DNA of 34,589 bases from Pseudomonas synxantha. GTDB lineage: Bacteria > Pseudomonadota > Gammaproteobacteria > Pseudomonadales > Pseudomonadaceae. The translations under genes and the position numbers were made by a program. The notes beneath the pieces were generated by a model. That model ran no database searches. It was not told the origin of the DNA and worked only from the letters and a program-made list of their open reading frames with translations. The stretch spans positions 1-34,589 of the forward strand of contig CAMCJM010000011.1 of NCBI GenBank assembly GCA_945874835.1. The letters are read 5' to 3'. Positions 23,795-32,320 of the stretch are shown piece by piece (position 1 is the stretch's first letter; each line of letters begins with the position of its first letter).

Positions 23795-24838
23795 TTATTT
23801 TCCCTGCCTGGCAATGACAACGATCTCTTCGGAGAGAGCTGGAAACCATGACCCCAATACATCAATTACAAACGCGATAAGCGCGCCCCCGCCTGCAGGC
23901 CCTCCATTACGGCGGCGCGCATAATCCACTGATGGGAGGATTGAACTGCGCGCACCTCTTCCACGACGTATCAAGCGCACATCTTCATAGCCGGCAGCCT
24001 GGAGCATGGCAACAACCTGATAAGGTGGCGGCAAGAACAAGTGGCGCGGTGGATCCAGAGAAAACCAGTTGCGCCCGAACACAAGGTGACCGAACCCAGA
24101 GGGATTGGGCAGACTCATCCACAGCGTACCGCCCGGCCGCAGCCAAATGCGCATCCGACGCAACGCCTCATCAGGCGCATGCAAATGCTCGAAAACATGC
24201 GAAAGAGTAATTTGATCGAACAGCGCCTCCGGCGCGAACTCCTCAATCGAACAGCTCGCCACCTCAAGCCCCTCCTGCCGCGCCCCTGTTGCTGCGAGGG
24301 GATCAGGCTCAATACCCTGTACCACCCAACCCGCAGATCGAGCCCTCAGGAGGAAAGCACCATTACCGCACCCAACATCCAGCACACGACCGGGCTTGGT
24401 CGGTAAATGACGGAAGAAGTAGTCAAGCTGCTGACGAAGCGGCCATAACAAGGGGACAATCCAGCGACCTATCCAACTCGCAGGATATCGCGCGGTCCCA
24501 AAACGCGCATTAAGGTAGCCATTGGCCAATCGCCATACCCGCGAAGAACCATTGTCACGCGAGTTTGCATTCTCACCACTGACGTGGGTCACATAGTCAT
24601 CTGGATAGGCACGACCAATCGTTGCCGGGGTAGGCCGCGGGTTCAAGTGGAGCGAGCCGCACGCCGCACAAGCCAGATACCCCCAGCCCCCCGGCAAGCC
24701 CCCCAAAAGATCCTCAAGCCCCTCATGGCAGACCGCGAATCGCGTACCACCACACGCCAAACAGACCGTGACCTGCTCAAGATCTGCCTTGCTCCATTCA
24801 GCCCCACCTTCATCGCCACCTGCTTGACTCTCATGCAT
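23795..24838 (-). CDS. SAM-dependent methyltransferase with N-terminal zinc ribbon (copy 1)
   Basis: 347 residues from the ATG at 24838, which has GGAG 9 bases upstream; the track start at 24853 is TTG. Same architecture as copy 2: zinc ribbon (TVCLACGGT ... LACAACGSLHLNPRPTP), then VLDVGCGNGAFLLRA, VQGIEPDP, ITLSHVFEHLHAPDEAL and LRPGGTLWMSLPN. The paralogues share order and spacing of every motif but are well diverged, so the duplication is old or they were acquired separately. The start overlaps the flippase stop by 8 bases, implying coupling. Confidence 0.85.
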   Translation of the reverse strand: MHESQAGGDEGGAEWSKADLEQVTVCLACGGTRFAVCHEGLEDLLGGLPGGWGYLACAACGSLHLNPRPTPATIGRAYPDDYVTHVSGENANSRDNGSSRVWRLANGYLNARFGTARYPASWIGRWIVPLLWPLRQQLDYFFRHLPTKPGRVLDVGCGNGAFLLRARSAGWVVQGIEPDPLAATGARQEGLEVASCSIEEFAPEALFDQITLSHVFEHLHAPDEALRRMRIWLRPGGTLWMSLPNPSGFGHLVFGRNWFSLDPPRHLFLPPPYQVVAMLQAAGYEDVRLIRRGRGARSSILPSVDYARRRNGGPAGGGALIAFVIDVLGSWFPALSEEIVVIARQGK

Positions 24839-26099
24839 CACTGAAGCCTCCAACTGACCTCAACTCGTTTAGAGCGAGAATAAAAAATACTGCCATGGCA
24901 ATCGCAGCGCAGGCCTCGGCAAGAAGACAACCAAGCATTACACCTCCGATACCCAGTACCGGGTATGCCAGAAACGCTACCGCAGCCAGGATCGCAAGGC
25001 TGCCCATATCTAACAGCGCCCTTACCAACGGCAGTCCGACAGCAATTAATGCCGTGGCAGCCACTTGACGGAGCCCTATGAGCACAACCATACCTGCCAA
25101 CCCTTGCATCCATGTCCATGCGTCCGGATAGAGCTTGAAACTACCTGGGGGGTATAGCGCCAAACAGACATACAGCAGCACCATCAGCACCGCACCGATA
25201 ACCGCGACAGCAAGCAAGACCGCGATAAACGAACGCCTTAAGCGAACGACATCGCACTGCGCGACAGCCTCGACCCAGCGCGGCAGCATTGTGGCCGCCA
25301 ATGCCGTAGCTGGCATAGCTAATGCCGAACACACGCGGTACGCCATTGCGTAGTACCCCGCCTGTTGAAGCCCCATAATACGAACCACCAAGGGCTTATC
25401 GAGCTCACTTGAAGCTAGAGCGGCACCTCCCATTGCTGCGTACCGCCATGCGGCAATAAATGTACTCATAACAGGAAAAGTAGGTCGCCATTTCAACGCA
25501 GCGACCCGAGTAACCCAGATGAGCATGGCGAATGCAGACAAGGCACCTACCACGACGTGAATGAGCAAATAGCTCTCTAGCATGGATTCTGCGTTGACCA
25601 CGTGAATCATGCACAGCCCCGCAGATATCGCGCGAGCAACCGTCAGTACTGCCGGCAAGCCGGCAGCAATACTAATACGGCCAATTGAGTGCCCCCACAG
25701 CCCTGCCGACTGAACAAGCGAGGCAATCAACACTTCAACAACCATGAAAACAATTGTCACACCTAGAGATACCACTCCCCCCAGCCACCAATAGAGCAAC
25801 AAGGCTCCTGCGATAGCCAGCGCCGGACCAATGACGACCAGAGCGCCAAGCGCTTCACACCAAAGATCTCCATTCTTGATTGACGAATGCGCATCAGCAA
25901 AGAAAAGGTAGGGAATACCGAAGGGGGCTACCAATGAGCAAATCGCCGACACGGCAAGCAACGAAGCGAGCCAACCAAAGTCCTCGGCCGGGAGTTGCTG
26001 TACGAGCAGCCAGACCCACAAGGCCAAGGCGAAGACTCGCACACTCATCCACGCCCCGCCTGATAGCGTGTCTTTCGCAAGAGTAGCGAGTCTGGGCAT
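24831..26099 (-). CDS. Polysaccharide flippase (Wzx-like, MATE/MOP superfamily)
   Basis: 422 residues from the ATG at 26099, 5 bases after the upstream GT2 stop; the 50-residue extension in the track overlaps that gene and is not membrane-like. About 12 predicted helices with the N-terminal TLAKDTLSGGAWMSVRV typical of the family start and the mid-protein ASSELDKPLVVRIMGLQQAGYYAMAYRV (family: D-..-G...g.Y..A). It would flip a lipid-linked glycan to the periplasm. No Wzy polymerase or ligase is visible in the window. Confidence 0.85.
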   Translation of the reverse strand: MPRLATLAKDTLSGGAWMSVRVFALALWVWLLVQQLPAEDFGWLASLLAVSAICSLVAPFGIPYLFFADAHSSIKNGDLWCEALGALVVIGPALAIAGALLLYWWLGGVVSLGVTIVFMVVEVLIASLVQSAGLWGHSIGRISIAAGLPAVLTVARAISAGLCMIHVVNAESMLESYLLIHVVVGALSAFAMLIWVTRVAALKWRPTFPVMSTFIAAWRYAAMGGAALASSELDKPLVVRIMGLQQAGYYAMAYRVCSALAMPATALAATMLPRWVEAVAQCDVVRLRRSFIAVLLAVAVIGAVLMVLLYVCLALYPPGSFKLYPDAWTWMQGLAGMVVLIGLRQVAATALIAVGLPLVRALLDMGSLAILAAVAFLAYPVLGIGGVMLGCLLAEACAAIAMAVFFILALNELRSVGGFSDA

Positions 26100-26104
26100 C
26101 CAGG

Positions 26105-27007
26105 TCACAGAGCGCCCGACCGACCGAGCACGCCATCCCGAACACCTGCAACCATATTGCTTAACTGTGCCAGACGCTGTGGCCCAGCAAGTGCGAAAAC
26201 TACCGCAGTCAAACCCAGCTTGACTATCGCCCACGCTTTCCAAATACACGGAACGTGAGATCGACGGAGTAACAGCACCGCATTGCGAAAAAGGTAACGG
26301 TGCCTATGTGGCGAGCGCACAGGCCAAACCCGCCAACCGAACATCCATAACCGTGTAGTTCGATCTCCCATACGGTGCAGAAAAGAAGCCTCTGGCACGC
26401 CGTACAACCGATGACCAGAAGCCAGCAGGCGGAACGACCAGTCAGTATCAACATGGTCAATAAACAAACCTTCGTCCATCCCCCCTAAAGACAGCGCAAG
26501 GTCAAGGGCCATGAACGTGCCACTCCCATTGAGGCACTCACAGGACACCGGAGCACCATCAACGGGAATAACACGCGCCCAACGCCAGCCTACAACTCGA
26601 TGGAAACCATGCTGCACACCTGATACAGGGTCACGTAACAACGGCCCAACGGCCCCTACGGGATACCCGCTTTCCACCAGAACAGTGTGTGCATCAGCCA
26701 AGGCATTAGCCGAGCCTGGCAGCGGCTCGCTGTCCTGATCCAGCAGCAATACATGAGTGCAGTTGCCGCGGGCAGCCAGATATTCCATGCCGCAGTTCTG
26801 CGCAGTCGCCAATCCCAGGTTAGCACCAAGGCGCAACACTTCGACACCTGGGAAGTTTGCAACCGCCAGCTCTATAAACGTCCACTCGTCATCTGAAGTA
26901 CCGTTATCAACCACCAGCCGAAGCCAATCATCCGGTAGAGCCCGCAGTTGACTCAAAACAAGCGCGGGATCCGGATGGAATGTCACAGTGATCGATGCGC
27001 AGCGCAT
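26105..27007 (-). CDS. GT2 glycosyltransferase (WbbL/rhamnosyltransferase-like)
   Basis: 300 residues from the ATG at 27007 with GGAG 6 bases upstream; the GTG at 27019 used in the track lies on that ribosome site. ITVTFHPDPALVLSQL, LVVDNGTSDD and LGLATAQNCGMEY mark the GT-A nucleotide domain, VLLLDQDSEP the metal-binding DxD, and GLFIDHVDTDWSFRLLASGH the acceptor region typical of dTDP-rhamnosyltransferases. A hydrophobic stretch near residue 265-285 may sit on the membrane. First gene of a tightly packed five-gene unit (gaps of +5, -8, +4, -4). Confidence 0.87.
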   Translation of the reverse strand: MRCASITVTFHPDPALVLSQLRALPDDWLRLVVDNGTSDDEWTFIELAVANFPGVEVLRLGANLGLATAQNCGMEYLAARGNCTHVLLLDQDSEPLPGSANALADAHTVLVESGYPVGAVGPLLRDPVSGVQHGFHRVVGWRWARVIPVDGAPVSCECLNGSGTFMALDLALSLGGMDEGLFIDHVDTDWSFRLLASGHRLYGVPEASFLHRMGDRTTRLWMFGWRVWPVRSPHRHRYLFRNAVLLLRRSHVPCIWKAWAIVKLGLTAVVFALAGPQRLAQLSNMVAGVRDGVLGRSGAL

Positions 27008-27136
27008 TAATGTCTCCACAGGAAATGTGCCGCGCCTAATTTATTATCAAGATCAAGAATACGCAGCGAACACCCATGCACGATGAAACTCCCGCTAAAG
27101 CACGAATTCATTTTTTAAGTCGGATATCGACCTACA

Positions 27137-27988
27137 TCACTTCGTATCCTTGTACATCAACGCCGTGATCTGCTCCGAGATCAGCCCCATCAAGAACACC
27201 ATCACCGCCCCACTGTAAAGCAAGGCACTCATATTGGTGAAGCGACCAAAGCTGTACAGCGTATAGCCATACCAACCCGAGGCCAGCATGAACATGAGCA
27301 AAGCCACCGGGGCAAATATTTTCAACGGTGAATATAAAGTGCCGATCTTGAAGATGATGAGCAAAAAGCGCGAACCGTCGCGCAGCAGGCGAATATGGCT
27401 TTTGCCGATACGCTTAGCTGCATGAATCGGCATATAAGCCACCGAATAGCCCGCACGGAAAAAGGCCATGGTGCTGGTAGTCGGGTAGGAAAAGCCGTTG
27501 GGTAACAGATAAAGGAACTCGCGAAACTTATCCGCCCGTACAGCACGGAAGCCGGACGTCAGATCTTCAACCCGATGCCCCGTCATCCAACTTGCGAGGC
27601 GGTTGTACAGGCCGTTGGCAAGTCCTCGTCCCATGCTGGCTTGCGAACCTTTTTGACGCGCCCCCACGACCATGTCGTGTCCCTGCTCGATCAACGCCAA
27701 CAGGCGGGGAATATCCGCTGGATCATGCTGGCCGTCGGCATCCATAAACACGATGATCTCGCCACTGGCGGCACGCGCGCCACTTTTAATCGCCGCTCCA
27801 TTGCCTTTGCTGTAAGGGTGCAGCACCACTCTGGCCCCGGCTGCTTCAGCAACCGCTGCTGTGCTGTCAGAGGAACCATCATTGACCACAATCATTTCGG
27901 CATCCGGGTAGTACTGTCGAATGCCCGCCACGGTTGCACCGATGGCTAACGCTTCGTTTTTGGCGGGGAGGACGATGCTTATATTCAT
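27137..27988 (-). CDS. Polyprenyl-phosphate glycosyltransferase (DPM1/GtrB-like GT2)
   Basis: 283 residues. The catalytic GT2 domain (IVLPAKNEALAIGATV, VVNDGSSDSTA, KGNGAAIKSGAR, FMDADGQHDP, VGARQKGSQ, LTSGFRAVRADKF) is followed by two C-terminal helices (about 224-245 and 255-277). Enzymes of this layout load a single sugar from a nucleotide sugar onto undecaprenyl phosphate for use by a GT-C transferase on the periplasmic side. Its ATG overlaps the upstream GT-C gene by 4 bases, so the pair is translationally coupled and very probably works in sequence. The sugar cannot be read from the sequence. Confidence 0.9.
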   Translation of the reverse strand: MNISIVLPAKNEALAIGATVAGIRQYYPDAEMIVVNDGSSDSTAAVAEAAGARVVLHPYSKGNGAAIKSGARAASGEIIVFMDADGQHDPADIPRLLALIEQGHDMVVGARQKGSQASMGRGLANGLYNRLASWMTGHRVEDLTSGFRAVRADKFREFLYLLPNGFSYPTTSTMAFFRAGYSVAYMPIHAAKRIGKSHIRLLRDGSRFLLIIFKIGTLYSPLKIFAPVALLMFMLASGWYGYTLYSFGRFTNMSALLYSGAVMVFLMGLISEQITALMYKDTK

Positions 27989-29895
27989 GGTGCTTCCGTA
28001 GCAGGGCTCTCGGTTTTTATGGCCTCTTTCAGGGCGCTTTCCAGATTGGCTATATCTCGCTCATAGGAGATACGCGAACGCTTCAGCTTGCGCGAGTCCT
28101 GCTGTGCCAACACTTGGGCGGCTTGCTTGAGCAGGGCTAATGCCTCTTTTGGGTGTCCGCTAGACGCCACTTCTGCAACCATGGCAAAGGCTGCGTCGGC
28201 TTCCTGGTATCGGCTCATCGCCAGGCTGTAATACTCATAAGCTTGGGCAGTATCACCAAGATGCAGGTAAAGCCGGGCACGCAGGTAAGCCACCAAGCGA
28301 ATATACAAGGGAAATTGGTTGTAGACAGTGCTGCTATCCATCGCATCCAATAAATTCAAGGTGTAGCGAACATACTCTGGCGAGCCACTTTCCAGCACCG
28401 TTTCAACAATGGTACGCATGCCTTTCACAGTTTGTGCATCAAACTGCTGCACCTTGAGCCGCTCTCCGGCTTGAATAAAGTCCTCCCCTGAAGCCGCTCC
28501 TACATATATTTTTTGCAGCAGGAGACGGACAGTTAGCAGTGAGCTATGGGACAGTCGCTCACTTTGCGCTAGTAAATACTCGTTAGCTTTCTCGTACTGC
28601 CCATCATTCATGTAATAAGCCGCCATACTGTTGATGGCGCGCGGCGATTCAGTGGCACCCTGCATCCAGTACAGCTCCAGTTTTTCGGTATCACTCCAGA
28701 GCGATGCGCGCAACCAAGTCATGGAAGCCAAAATACCAAGTATGGCAACAGCAATGACTGGCAGCAGCTGGAAGCGACTACTCAAGATCACGCAGTAATA
28801 GGCCAGCGGTAGAAATAGAAACAGGGCGGCCAAATGGTTACGGTGCTCAAAATACAACTCCAACCCAACCACTGTGGATTCCATCAGGTGAGCCGCAAAG
28901 AAAAACAGAATAGCCAGACTGATCAGAGGTGCCTTTTTACGCAGCAGGAAGGCAAACACAACCAGTGCCAACAGAAAAATAATGGCAAAAAAAGTACTAA
29001 CCGGCTCAAACAAGCCTTTGGAGATAACATAACCATCCTGATACAAACCATTGCCTTCAATCCTGGGCACAAACAGATGCAGCAGATACTCGCAGACAAT
29101 GCGGGCTTCGGTTAGTAAGCGTTCAGGCTGATTGAAATTACGGCTGGGCCACGGACTGTCAGCAAAATCAATGTAGCGGGCCAGCAGAATGGCGATAGCA
29201 ACGGAGGGAAGCCAGAGAAATACTGCCCGCCACTGCCAGGCCGGCTTGCCATGCTTTGGCAGACAGAACTCAATAACCAGAATAAGCAACGGCAGCAAGG
29301 CACCGTTTTCCTTGCTGAGCAAGGCCAGAAGCGTGCCCGCACCAACGGCAAGGGTCATCAATAAATAGGCGCGCTTGGGCGTTTGATGTAGTTGCAAACG
29401 CGCATACAGATATAAAACAATTCCCGCCAGGCAGAACAACGTGGCCAGTTGCGCCATGCGCTGTACCACATACAGCGTGGTGGACACCATATAAGGGTGC
29501 AACACCCAGAATGCACAGGCCAATACAGCAATCCATTGTGCCTGACGCTCACTATCGAGCTTGAGATTGCGCATTAATAACAGCGTTGCCCAACACAGCA
29601 ACAAGCCGCACAGCATATGAATCAACAGATTGGTGTATTTGAACCAAGGCGCGTAACTTGGCCAGGTATTGTCATCCAACAAAAAACTGGCTAGCGATAG
29701 AGGGCGCCCTGTTGGGCCGGACCAGCCACTAAACACAAAAGCATGAAAAGTTTCCCAATTGATTACGCCACCGAAATCCTCCATCGCATCTAGGTTAGGA
29801 TGGTCGTCAAATAAGAAGCCTCCACTCAGGCCAGGCCAATAAACAAAGCAAGTGCTTAACAGCACTACAAATAATAAAAAACCCGGTCTAACCAT
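27985..29895 (-). CDS. GT-C membrane glycosyltransferase with C-terminal TPR-like domain (TMTC-like), candidate pilin glycosyltransferase
   Basis: 636 residues from the ATG at 29895; the track ATG at 29940 lies in the pilA terminator stem and is rejected. A first helix leads straight into GGFLFDDHPNL, the acidic loop motif of GT-C/TMTC-type protein O-glycosyltransferases (Asp30-Asp31). About ten further helices run to roughly residue 410, including HRNHLAALFLFLPL. The last ~210 residues are soluble helical repeats of TPR type (AAYYMNDGQYEKANEYLL, ARLYLHLGDTAQAYEYYSLA, GHPKEALALLKQAA). It uses polyprenyl-phosphate sugars by family analogy. Position directly after pilA and coupling to the DPM1-like gene suggest that PilA is the acceptor. 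It could instead act on lipid or another protein. AT-richer than the housekeeping genes. Confidence 0.72.
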   Translation of the reverse strand: MVRPGFLLFVVLLSTCFVYWPGLSGGFLFDDHPNLDAMEDFGGVINWETFHAFVFSGWSGPTGRPLSLASFLLDDNTWPSYAPWFKYTNLLIHMLCGLLLCWATLLLMRNLKLDSERQAQWIAVLACAFWVLHPYMVSTTLYVVQRMAQLATLFCLAGIVLYLYARLQLHQTPKRAYLLMTLAVGAGTLLALLSKENGALLPLLILVIEFCLPKHGKPAWQWRAVFLWLPSVAIAILLARYIDFADSPWPSRNFNQPERLLTEARIVCEYLLHLFVPRIEGNGLYQDGYVISKGLFEPVSTFFAIIFLLALVVFAFLLRKKAPLISLAILFFFAAHLMESTVVGLELYFEHRNHLAALFLFLPLAYYCVILSSRFQLLPVIAVAILGILASMTWLRASLWSDTEKLELYWMQGATESPRAINSMAAYYMNDGQYEKANEYLLAQSERLSHSSLLTVRLLLQKIYVGAASGEDFIQAGERLKVQQFDAQTVKGMRTIVETVLESGSPEYVRYTLNLLDAMDSSTVYNQFPLYIRLVAYLRARLYLHLGDTAQAYEYYSLAMSRYQEADAAFAMVAEVASSGHPKEALALLKQAAQVLAQQDSRKLKRSRISYERDIANLESALKEAIKTESPATEAP

Positions 29896-29906
29896 GACTA
29901 TATTCT

Positions 29907-29944
29907 TAATAATAAAAGGGCGATGCTTATAAATAAGCATCGCC
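29907..29944 (-). terminator. Strong Rho-independent terminator between pilA and the GT-C gene
   Basis: Minus strand: GGCGATGCTTAT-TT-ATAAGCATCGCC, a perfect 12-bp stem, followed by CTTTTATTATT. It starts 20 bases after the pilA stop. Downstream glycosylation genes lie beyond it on the same strand, so they would depend on read-through or on an unseen promoter. Confidence 0.88.
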
Positions 29945-29963
29945 TCATTTTTAAACTACGCTA

Positions 29964-30383
29964 TTAGCGGCAGTTCGAAGGAATGAACTTTGGATCGATG
30001 GAGCCACGTTTGCACTTCCAGCGGATGCCACCAGCATTAGTACTCGCGCTCAACATGAGGGTCGCACCTTCGGCCACTTTATTGTTATAAGTGATGGTGA
30101 TTTGGCCACCAGCAACACCAACACTAGTAACAGCATTACCTGTGATCGACGCACCGTCAGCCAGCCCAGCGGAGGCATTGCCCGCAGGAAAACGATTGTT
30201 GGTGGACAAGAACTCGGATACGGAAGCCTTAGCACCACCGGCAAGGCTCAGGCCTTCGGAAACGTGAGAACGCTTGGTGTAATCCTGGTAAGCCGGCAGC
30301 GCGATGGCAGCCAAAATACCGATGATCGCAACCACGATCATCAATTCAATCAGGGTAAAGCCTTTCTGCAGTTGAGCTTTCAT
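29964..30383 (-). CDS. pilA: Type IV major pilin PilA
   Basis: 139-residue prepilin from the ATG at 30383 (GGAG 8 bases upstream; the 24-residue track extension is not coding). The leader MKAQLQKG is cut by PilD before Phe, giving mature [24 protein letters not shown] with Glu5. Two cysteines, 124 and 138, close a D-region loop of 13 residues ([13 protein letters not shown]). The protein ends in Arg right after Cys138, so there is no C-terminal serine of the kind used by TfpO/PilO. Ser/Thr- and Gly-rich stretches ([31 protein letters not shown]) are possible glycan sites. It is the main structural subunit assembled by PilB/PilC and is transcribed away from them. Confidence 0.95.
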
Positions 30384-30405
30384 AGAAACATCTCCATTAG
30401 TGTGT

Positions 30406-30422
30406 GTAGGTCGACGACCTAC
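30406..30422 (-). promoter_or_regulatory. Palindrome at the predicted 5' end of the pilA mRNA
   Basis: GTAGGTCGTCGACCTAC on the minus strand: a 7-bp stem with a 3-base loop (perfect 8+1+8 palindrome). With the -12 element at 30433-30434, transcription should start at about 30422, so the transcript would begin with this hairpin, 22 bases before the coding start. It could protect the message from 5'-end decay or be a protein-binding operator. Confidence 0.6.
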
Positions 30423-30431
30423 ATATGACAA

Positions 30432-30447
30432 TGCAGCTCGCATGCCA
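30432..30447 (-). promoter_or_regulatory. Sigma-54 promoter of pilA
   Basis: Minus strand TGGCATGCGAGCTGCA: GG (-24) and GC (-12) with exactly 10 bases between, matching the RpoN consensus TGGCAC-N5-TTGCA. pilA is RpoN/PilR-dependent in P. aeruginosa. The -12 element lies 50 bases before the ATG. Confidence 0.8.
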
Positions 30448-30607
30448 ACTCCCAATGCACCTGCAATCTAGGCTTCTGGATAAAATCCACCAGACAGCCA
30501 TCATCACAACACCGACACTAACTGCCATTTTTTGTCACCTCGCACCCTCGCGTTTGGCACACCCTTGCCAACTAGGCTATAAGTAAGGCTAGCTTATGGA
30601 GCCTGCA

Positions 30608-32320
30608 ATGAACGACAGCGTGACCCTCACCGGCCTGGCCCGGCAAATGGTGTTAGCCGAACTGCTGGATGAAAAAACCGCCCAGCAGGCGCAAAGCCAA
30701 GCACAGCGCAACAAGCTCTCGCTCGTTACCTACCTGGTGCAGAACAAGCTGGTTAAAAGTCGCGTGCTGGCAGAGCTGGCCTCGGAGCAATTTGGCGTCT
30801 CCTTCGTTGATCTCAATGCCATCGACAAGGAAACCCAGCCTAAGGACCTCGTGAGCGAAAAGCTGGTGCGCCAGCACCGTGTTTTACCGCTGTGGCGGCG
30901 TGGCAATAAGCTGTTCTTAGCTGTATCAGACCCCACCAACCACCAAGCCGTCACCGACGTGCAATTCAGTACCGGCCTGAACACCGAAGCGATTTTGGTG
31001 GAGGACGATAAGCTGGGCGATGCCATTGACAAGTTCTTCGATTCTGCCGTCAGCGGCATGGAAGACCTAGGTGATGTCGATCTGGACGACCTGGACGGCC
31101 TGGACGCTCAAGCCGTTAGCGACGACACCCCCGATGGCGGCGAAGGCAACGCGACCGACGACGCACCGGTGGTGCGTTTTGTGAATAAAATGCTGCTTGA
31201 CGCGATAAAGAAGGGGTCATCCGACCTGCACTTTGAACCCTATGAAAAAGCCTACCGCGTGCGCTTTCGTACCGACGGTATCTTGCAGGAAATCGCCCGC
31301 CCGCCCATCCAGCTTTCCCCGCGTATTTCTGCGCGGCTTAAGGTGATGGCCGGTTTGGATATTTCCGAACGGCGCAAACCGCAGGACGGGCGCATTAAAA
31401 TGCGCATTTCCAAAAGCAAGTCCATCGATTTTCGCGTGAGCACCTGCCCCACCTTGTGGGGTGAAAAAATCGTAATGCGGATTCTGGACTCCGCCAGCGC
31501 ACAAATGGGCATTGATGCGCTTGGTTACGAAGAGTCGCAGAAGGAGCTGTATATGTCGGCGCTTAAACAACCGCAGGGGATGATTCTAGTAACCGGCCCC
31601 ACCGGCTCGGGCAAAACCGTGTCGCTTTACACCGGCCTCAACATTCTCAATACCGTGGATGTGAATATCTCCACCGCCGAAGACCCGGTGGAGATCAACC
31701 TAGAAGGCATCAACCAGGTTAACGTTAACCCCAAGCAGGGCATGGACTTTACCGCCGCGCTCAAGTCCTTCCTGCGTCAAGATCCGGACATCATCATGGT
31801 CGGTGAGATACGCGACCTAGATACAGCCTCCATTGCCATTAAAGCTGCGCAAACGGGCCACATGGTGATGTCTACCCTGCACACCAACAGCGCGGCAGAA
31901 ACCCTCACCCGCCTGCGCAACATGGGCGTACCGTCTTTTAACATCGCCACCTCGGTCAACCTGATCATCGCTCAGCGCCTCGCACGTAAGCTGTGCAACA
32001 GCTGCAAAAAGGAAGTACAGATCCCCCGTGAGGCGCTAACTGAGGAAGGTTTTCCCGAAGATCAGATCGGTAAATTCAAGCTTTACGCACCCATAGGCTG
32101 TGAAAACTGCAACGGTGGTTACAAAGGCCGTGTCGGGATTTATGAAGTGGTTAAAAACACGCCTGCCCTACAACGGATTATCATGGAGGAAGGCAACTCT
32201 ATTGACATATCTATACAGATGCGCAAAGACGGCTTTAACGACCTGCGAACCTCAGCCCTGCTGAAGGCCATGCAAGGCGTCACCAGCCTGGCAGAAGTGA
32301 ACCGCGTGACAAAGGACTAA
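30608..32320 (+). CDS. pilB: Type IV pilus extension ATPase PilB
   Basis: 570 residues from the ATG at 30608, preceded by GGAG at 6 bases and matching the MNDS start of P. aeruginosa PilB; the track ATG at 30596 overlaps that ribosome site. It powers pilus assembly at the inner-membrane base. The N-terminal domain (about 1-150) includes VRQHRVLPLWRRGNKLFLAVSDP, followed by an acidic linker (DLDDLDGLDAQ), GPTGSGKT (Walker A), IIMVGEIRDLDTA (Walker B), TLHTNSAAETLTRL, and the zinc-binding tetracysteine (CNSCKK ... CENCNGGYKGR). Stop is 3 bases before pilC. Confidence 0.97.
   Translation: MNDSVTLTGLARQMVLAELLDEKTAQQAQSQAQRNKLSLVTYLVQNKLVKSRVLAELASEQFGVSFVDLNAIDKETQPKDLVSEKLVRQHRVLPLWRRGNKLFLAVSDPTNHQAVTDVQFSTGLNTEAILVEDDKLGDAIDKFFDSAVSGMEDLGDVDLDDLDGLDAQAVSDDTPDGGEGNATDDAPVVRFVNKMLLDAIKKGSSDLHFEPYEKAYRVRFRTDGILQEIARPPIQLSPRISARLKVMAGLDISERRKPQDGRIKMRISKSKSIDFRVSTCPTLWGEKIVMRILDSASAQMGIDALGYEESQKELYMSALKQPQGMILVTGPTGSGKTVSLYTGLNILNTVDVNISTAEDPVEINLEGINQVNVNPKQGMDFTAALKSFLRQDPDIIMVGEIRDLDTASIAIKAAQTGHMVMSTLHTNSAAETLTRLRNMGVPSFNIATSVNLIIAQRLARKLCNSCKKEVQIPREALTEEGFPEDQIGKFKLYAPIGCENCNGGYKGRVGIYEVVKNTPALQRIIMEEGNSIDISIQMRKDGFNDLRTSALLKAMQGVTSLAEVNRVTKD

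Follow-up and report, generated by a model that had tools for sequence, protein, structure and literature searches.

The window, by which we mean the whole 34,589-nt stretch of Pseudomonas synxantha DNA that was analyzed, contains a pilin gene, pilA, with a hairpin and two co-directional genes for putative glycosyltransferases behind it. The pilB gene is divergent from pilA. The features are collected in Table 1.

Table 1. Genes and control elements around pilA, in positions of the window.
Feature	Positions	Strand	Evidence or remark
pilB	30596–32320	+	Divergent from pilA
Sigma54-type −24/−12 element of pilA, TGGCATGCGAGCTGCA	30432–30447	−	2 mismatches to TGGCACGNNNNTTGCA
pilA, type IVa major pilin, 139 aa	29964–30383	−	Pfam Pilin 7e-24, N_methyl 5e-10
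Terminator hairpin	29919–29944	−	Perfect 11-bp stem, 4-nt loop
Imperfect U-tract, CTTTTATTATTA	29907–29918	−	Sequence, directly 3′ of the stem
ATT in place of the ATG of P. argentinensis (start moved or lost)	29908–29910	−	Alignment with P. argentinensis (L014)
TfpW-like GT-C membrane glycosyltransferase, 636 aa, TPR region at the C-terminus	27985–29895	−	Presumed pilin glycosyltransferase
GT2 polyprenyl-phosphate sugar synthase (DPM1/GtrB type)	27137–27988	−	Pfam PF00535, 2.6e-31

Read on the − strand from 29944 to 29919, the hairpin is GGCGATGCTTA-TTTA-TAAGCATCGCC, with a UUUA loop in the RNA. Its minimum free energy is −17.7 kcal/mol, compared with a mean of −4.2 for shuffled sequences (z = −6.3), and none of the 200 shuffles is equally stable. 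Chance would give no occurrence of the palindrome in the window, which contains it once. The hairpin begins 19 nt after the pilA stop codon (29966–29964), and the GT-C ATG at 29895 is found 23 nt beyond the stem and 11 nt beyond the U-rich tail. There is thus an intrinsic terminator directly 3′ of the pilin gene, with a weak U-tract (d = 10). The initial annotation had described a perfect 12-bp stem with a U-rich tract and a GT-C start nearby. All of this holds except for the length, which is 11 bp on the strand of pilA and the GT-C gene; a 12th pair, G–U (29918/29945), is present only in RNA of the opposite strand. A scan of positions 29700–30700 against Rfam gave no match up to E = 1, and thus no known riboswitch or leader in this region.

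The sigma54-type element makes pilA a type IVa major pilin gene with a candidate sigma54 promoter, and the relatives described below in which pilA is linked to a glycosyltransferase gene have a similar element, about 60–90 nt before the pilA ATG. At each of the 110 loci that were compared, the highest-scoring sigma54-like site 5′ of pilA reaches at least 10, and the mean over the loci is 12.2 out of 13.8, against 9.4 for shuffles. Since the element in the window also scores 12.2, it is typical rather than exceptional, and the very strong promoter previously ascribed to this gene is not borne out. Does the GT-C gene have a promoter of its own? From pilA to the GT-C ATG, the best sigma70-like site scores no better than shuffles (P = 0.81), and no sigma54-like site was found on the − strand between the two genes. 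The single sigma70 scan match of the region, 29900–29871, extends into the GT-C gene. Judged by the sigma70 and sigma54 consensus, this is a co-directional accessory gene close behind pilA without its own promoter, which agrees with the earlier statement that no clear promoter follows the terminator.

Throughout Pseudomonadaceae there is a group of membrane proteins linked to pilA, and the GT-C protein is one of them. It matches no Pfam family at 0.001, and shows weak TPR matches. A two-sequence comparison with the L075 protein, which is most likely TfpW of P. aeruginosa PA7, gives 27% identity over 156 aa (E = 2e-10), and about 18% overall. In an alignment of 17 GT-C sequences that includes L075, 11 columns are invariant, among them a DD pair, an R, and a KE pair. 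The pairwise match and the shared invariant residues identify the GT-C protein, as far as sequence goes, as a distant relative of TfpW. A PDB sequence search with the protein alone gave nothing, and one with the alignment gave TPR proteins. TPR proteins also dominated the full-length fold search, and for this reason a model was made of the membrane domain by itself. The AlphaFold (AF2) model of this transmembrane domain has a pLDDT of 82 and a pTM of 0.87, and its best 12 PDB matches are all GT-C or GT-C-like (GPI-transamidase subunit U, Pmt4, STT3, PimE, and PglB), with modest scores (E of at least 3e-3, TM at most 0.51). The domain is thus predicted, at these modest scores, to have a GT-C fold.

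The start of the GT2 gene overlaps the stop of the GT-C gene by 4 nt, and P. argentinensis (L014) and a MAG (L015) show the same overlap. In NCBIfam, the GT2 protein resembles AglJ and dolichyl-P-hexose transferases, below the cut-offs. In the MAG (G049 contig 58), the unit of pilA, terminator, GT-C, and GT2 is located away from pilB and beside a phosphoglucomutase-like gene, as if it had been relocated as one cassette. After the cassette in the window, positions 24831–27019 on the − strand encode a rhamnosyltransferase-like GT2 and a flippase-like membrane protein. These were considered as cassette members and rejected, as they are not conserved there in L014 and L015; they are probably a separate polysaccharide cluster.

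To place the hairpin among its relatives, pilB-anchored loci from 149 Pseudomonadaceae genomes, further loci, and L014 and L015 were assembled, and the 110 loci with a recognisable pilA were analyzed. At 34 of these, the gene behind pilA is pilin-glycosyltransferase-like, namely TfpW-like GT-C in 20 cases (a set defined as a single-linkage group) and TfpO/PglL-like in 14. An intrinsic terminator (d > 5) is present between the two genes at every one of the 34 loci. The stem sequences vary among the relatives, and the structure is kept. The distance from the stem to the next possible start has a median of 18–18.5 nt; it is 40 nt or less at 31 of the 34 loci, less than 30 nt in most relatives, and 9–25 nt in many. 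Such a short gap usually leaves no room for a separate promoter. As controls, 290 co-directional pairs of neighboring genes were taken from 20 relatives (800 kb in total); 25 of the pairs had a terminator, and 12 had a terminator with a start within 40 nt. The Fisher p of about 3e-36 was computed on 34/34 against 12/290, where the matched comparison is 31/34 against 12/290; because of these unmatched counts, the relatedness of the loci, and crude gene calling, it overstates the significance, but not the contrast.

Compared with terminators at loci where no long co-directional gene comes after pilA, the glycosyltransferase-linked terminators lie closer to the pilA stop codon (median +18 versus +54) and have richer U-tracts. 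They are not weaker than the terminators of pilA genes that lack a glycosyltransferase gene behind them (median d of 47 versus 37), so the sequences give no sign that these terminators are in general designed to leak. Other long genes are located just behind pilA and its terminator at L066, L068, and L021 and at L104, L099, and L139. They encode a sulfatase-fold membrane protein or a Wzy_C-only (O-antigen ligase-like) protein, and are possibly further kinds of pilin-modifying accessory genes. At L022, L023, and L025, the pilin gene is followed by a co-directional pilB, instead of a divergent one.

The terminator in the window is itself an exception to this pattern of linked terminators that are not weak. 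Its stem is identical to that of P. argentinensis at 26 of 26 positions, with pilA 81% and the GT-C gene 86% identical, but the tail is TTTTTATTTTTATG in P. argentinensis, and the terminator score (d'Aubenton-Carafa form) is 49 there. The value in the window is the lowest of all 34 glycosyltransferase-linked pilA terminators. The tail has a C instead of a U right after the stem. This plausibly allows more read-through, by analogy with P. aeruginosa, where the U-stretch was given cytosines at T2 and T3 in order to raise TfpY (PMC11841053, J Bacteriol 2025). The alignment of region 29893–29910 shows a further difference, in that the GT-C gene of P. argentinensis starts at an ATG following the U-tract, where the window has ATT. 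The next in-frame ATG, at 29895, has no recognisable Shine–Dalgarno sequence, so the protein level could be limited by translation as much as by termination. Another in-frame ATG, at 29940, was rejected as the GT-C start: it is located inside the stem, with an unpaired probability of 0.00 in the folded transcript, it also has no Shine–Dalgarno sequence in the window, and the matching ATG in L014 and L015 comes after the U-tract. One may speculate that the weak tail and the loss of the start codon offset each other.

We suggest, with a probability of roughly 0.8, that the hairpin is an intrinsic terminator that attenuates expression within a pilin-accessory cassette, and that partial read-through keeps the GT-C enzyme at a low level, coupled to the pilin. 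RNA polymerase would start at the sigma54 (−24/−12) promoter of pilA, and the majority of transcripts would stop at the hairpin, giving abundant pilA mRNA, while a minority would read through to give a pilA-GT-C-GT2 mRNA. The GT2 enzyme would then charge undecaprenyl phosphate with a sugar, which the TfpW-like GT-C protein would pass to the pilin in the periplasm. The outcome would be an enzyme that is scarce and in step with its substrate. We infer the partial read-through at this locus, the sugar-transfer activity, and the pilin as target. This is the valve that the initial annotation had put forward, and the comparison supports it. It is favored because there is no space for a promoter, because the terminator recurs at 34 of 34 loci, and because the same architecture has been published for P. 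aeruginosa (PMC11841053).

Could the GT-C gene instead be expressed independently? The terminator would then be complete and insulate pilA, and a weak GT-C promoter would overlap the hairpin or lie in the 3′ end of pilA. The tail does contain an isolated −10-like TATTAT (29914–29909), with 7/12 matches overall. We nevertheless regard this as quite unlikely, since the sigma70-like scores are at chance level, the gap between stem and start in most relatives is too short for a promoter, and any promoter upstream of the hairpin would meet the same terminator. It is also conceivable that the hairpin acts after transcription, either by marking a processing site or by shielding the 3′ end of pilA when both genes are on one transcript, the levels then being set by mRNA stability. 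A stable stem directly after the stop codon of pilA would protect the 3′ end once such a transcript is cut. We consider it very unlikely, since a stability element needs no U-tract, and U-tracts are found behind the hairpins of the relatives and are richer in the glycosyltransferase-linked cassettes. Furthermore, the published U-tract mutations used to raise the accessory protein were made for more read-through (PMC11841053).

Attenuation could also be twofold, if the hairpin remained folded next to the ribosome-binding region and lowered translation as well, the weak U-tract being offset by the change from ATG to ATT and the lack of a Shine–Dalgarno sequence. This we think unlikely. The attenuating terminator with partial read-through is the reading that we prefer, and it is an independent rediscovery of a known mechanism. 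It is not new, since a Rho-independent terminator after the pilin gene has already been described as common in the pilin-accessory cassettes of P. aeruginosa, with the proposed role of attenuating accessory gene expression; in that species, the levels of pilA and tfpY fall together (PMC11841053). A literature search found no paper with published term-seq data for pilA in Pseudomonas. What is added here is the recurrence of the terminator in Pseudomonadaceae cassettes with unrelated glycosyltransferases, together with the weak variant in the window. A control element known from the pilin cassettes of P. aeruginosa is thereby extended to pilin-glycosyltransferase cassettes throughout Pseudomonadaceae, which suggests an exchangeable cassette of which the terminator is a part. 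Cloning or moving pilin-modifying genes without the terminator would alter the ratio of enzyme to pilin.

How does the cassette compare with known systems? The combination of a GT2 polyprenyl-phosphate sugar synthase with a GT-C protein resembles the three-component Gtr systems, which consist of the GtrA flippase, the GtrB undP-sugar synthase, and a GT-C transferase (PMC11127046). No GtrA was seen in the genes adjacent to the GT-C/GT2 pair, and the acceptor is presumably the pilin rather than O-antigen. The GT-C protein resembles TfpW, the GT-C arabinosyltransferase of group IV pilins, in its position after pilA and a terminator, in its GT-C family, and in the invariant DD, R, and KE residues; it differs in its low overall identity and in being followed by its own GT2. 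The layout is that of the P. aeruginosa cassettes, in which pilA and a terminator are followed by tfpO, tfpW, tfpX, tfpY, or tfpZ, with the intrinsic terminator just behind the pilin gene and the accessory start a few nucleotides later (PMC11841053). Unlike in those cassettes, the accessory unit of the window is a pair of overlapping genes (TfpW-like GT-C and GT2), behind a terminator with a weaker tail than that of any of the 33 relatives in the comparison.
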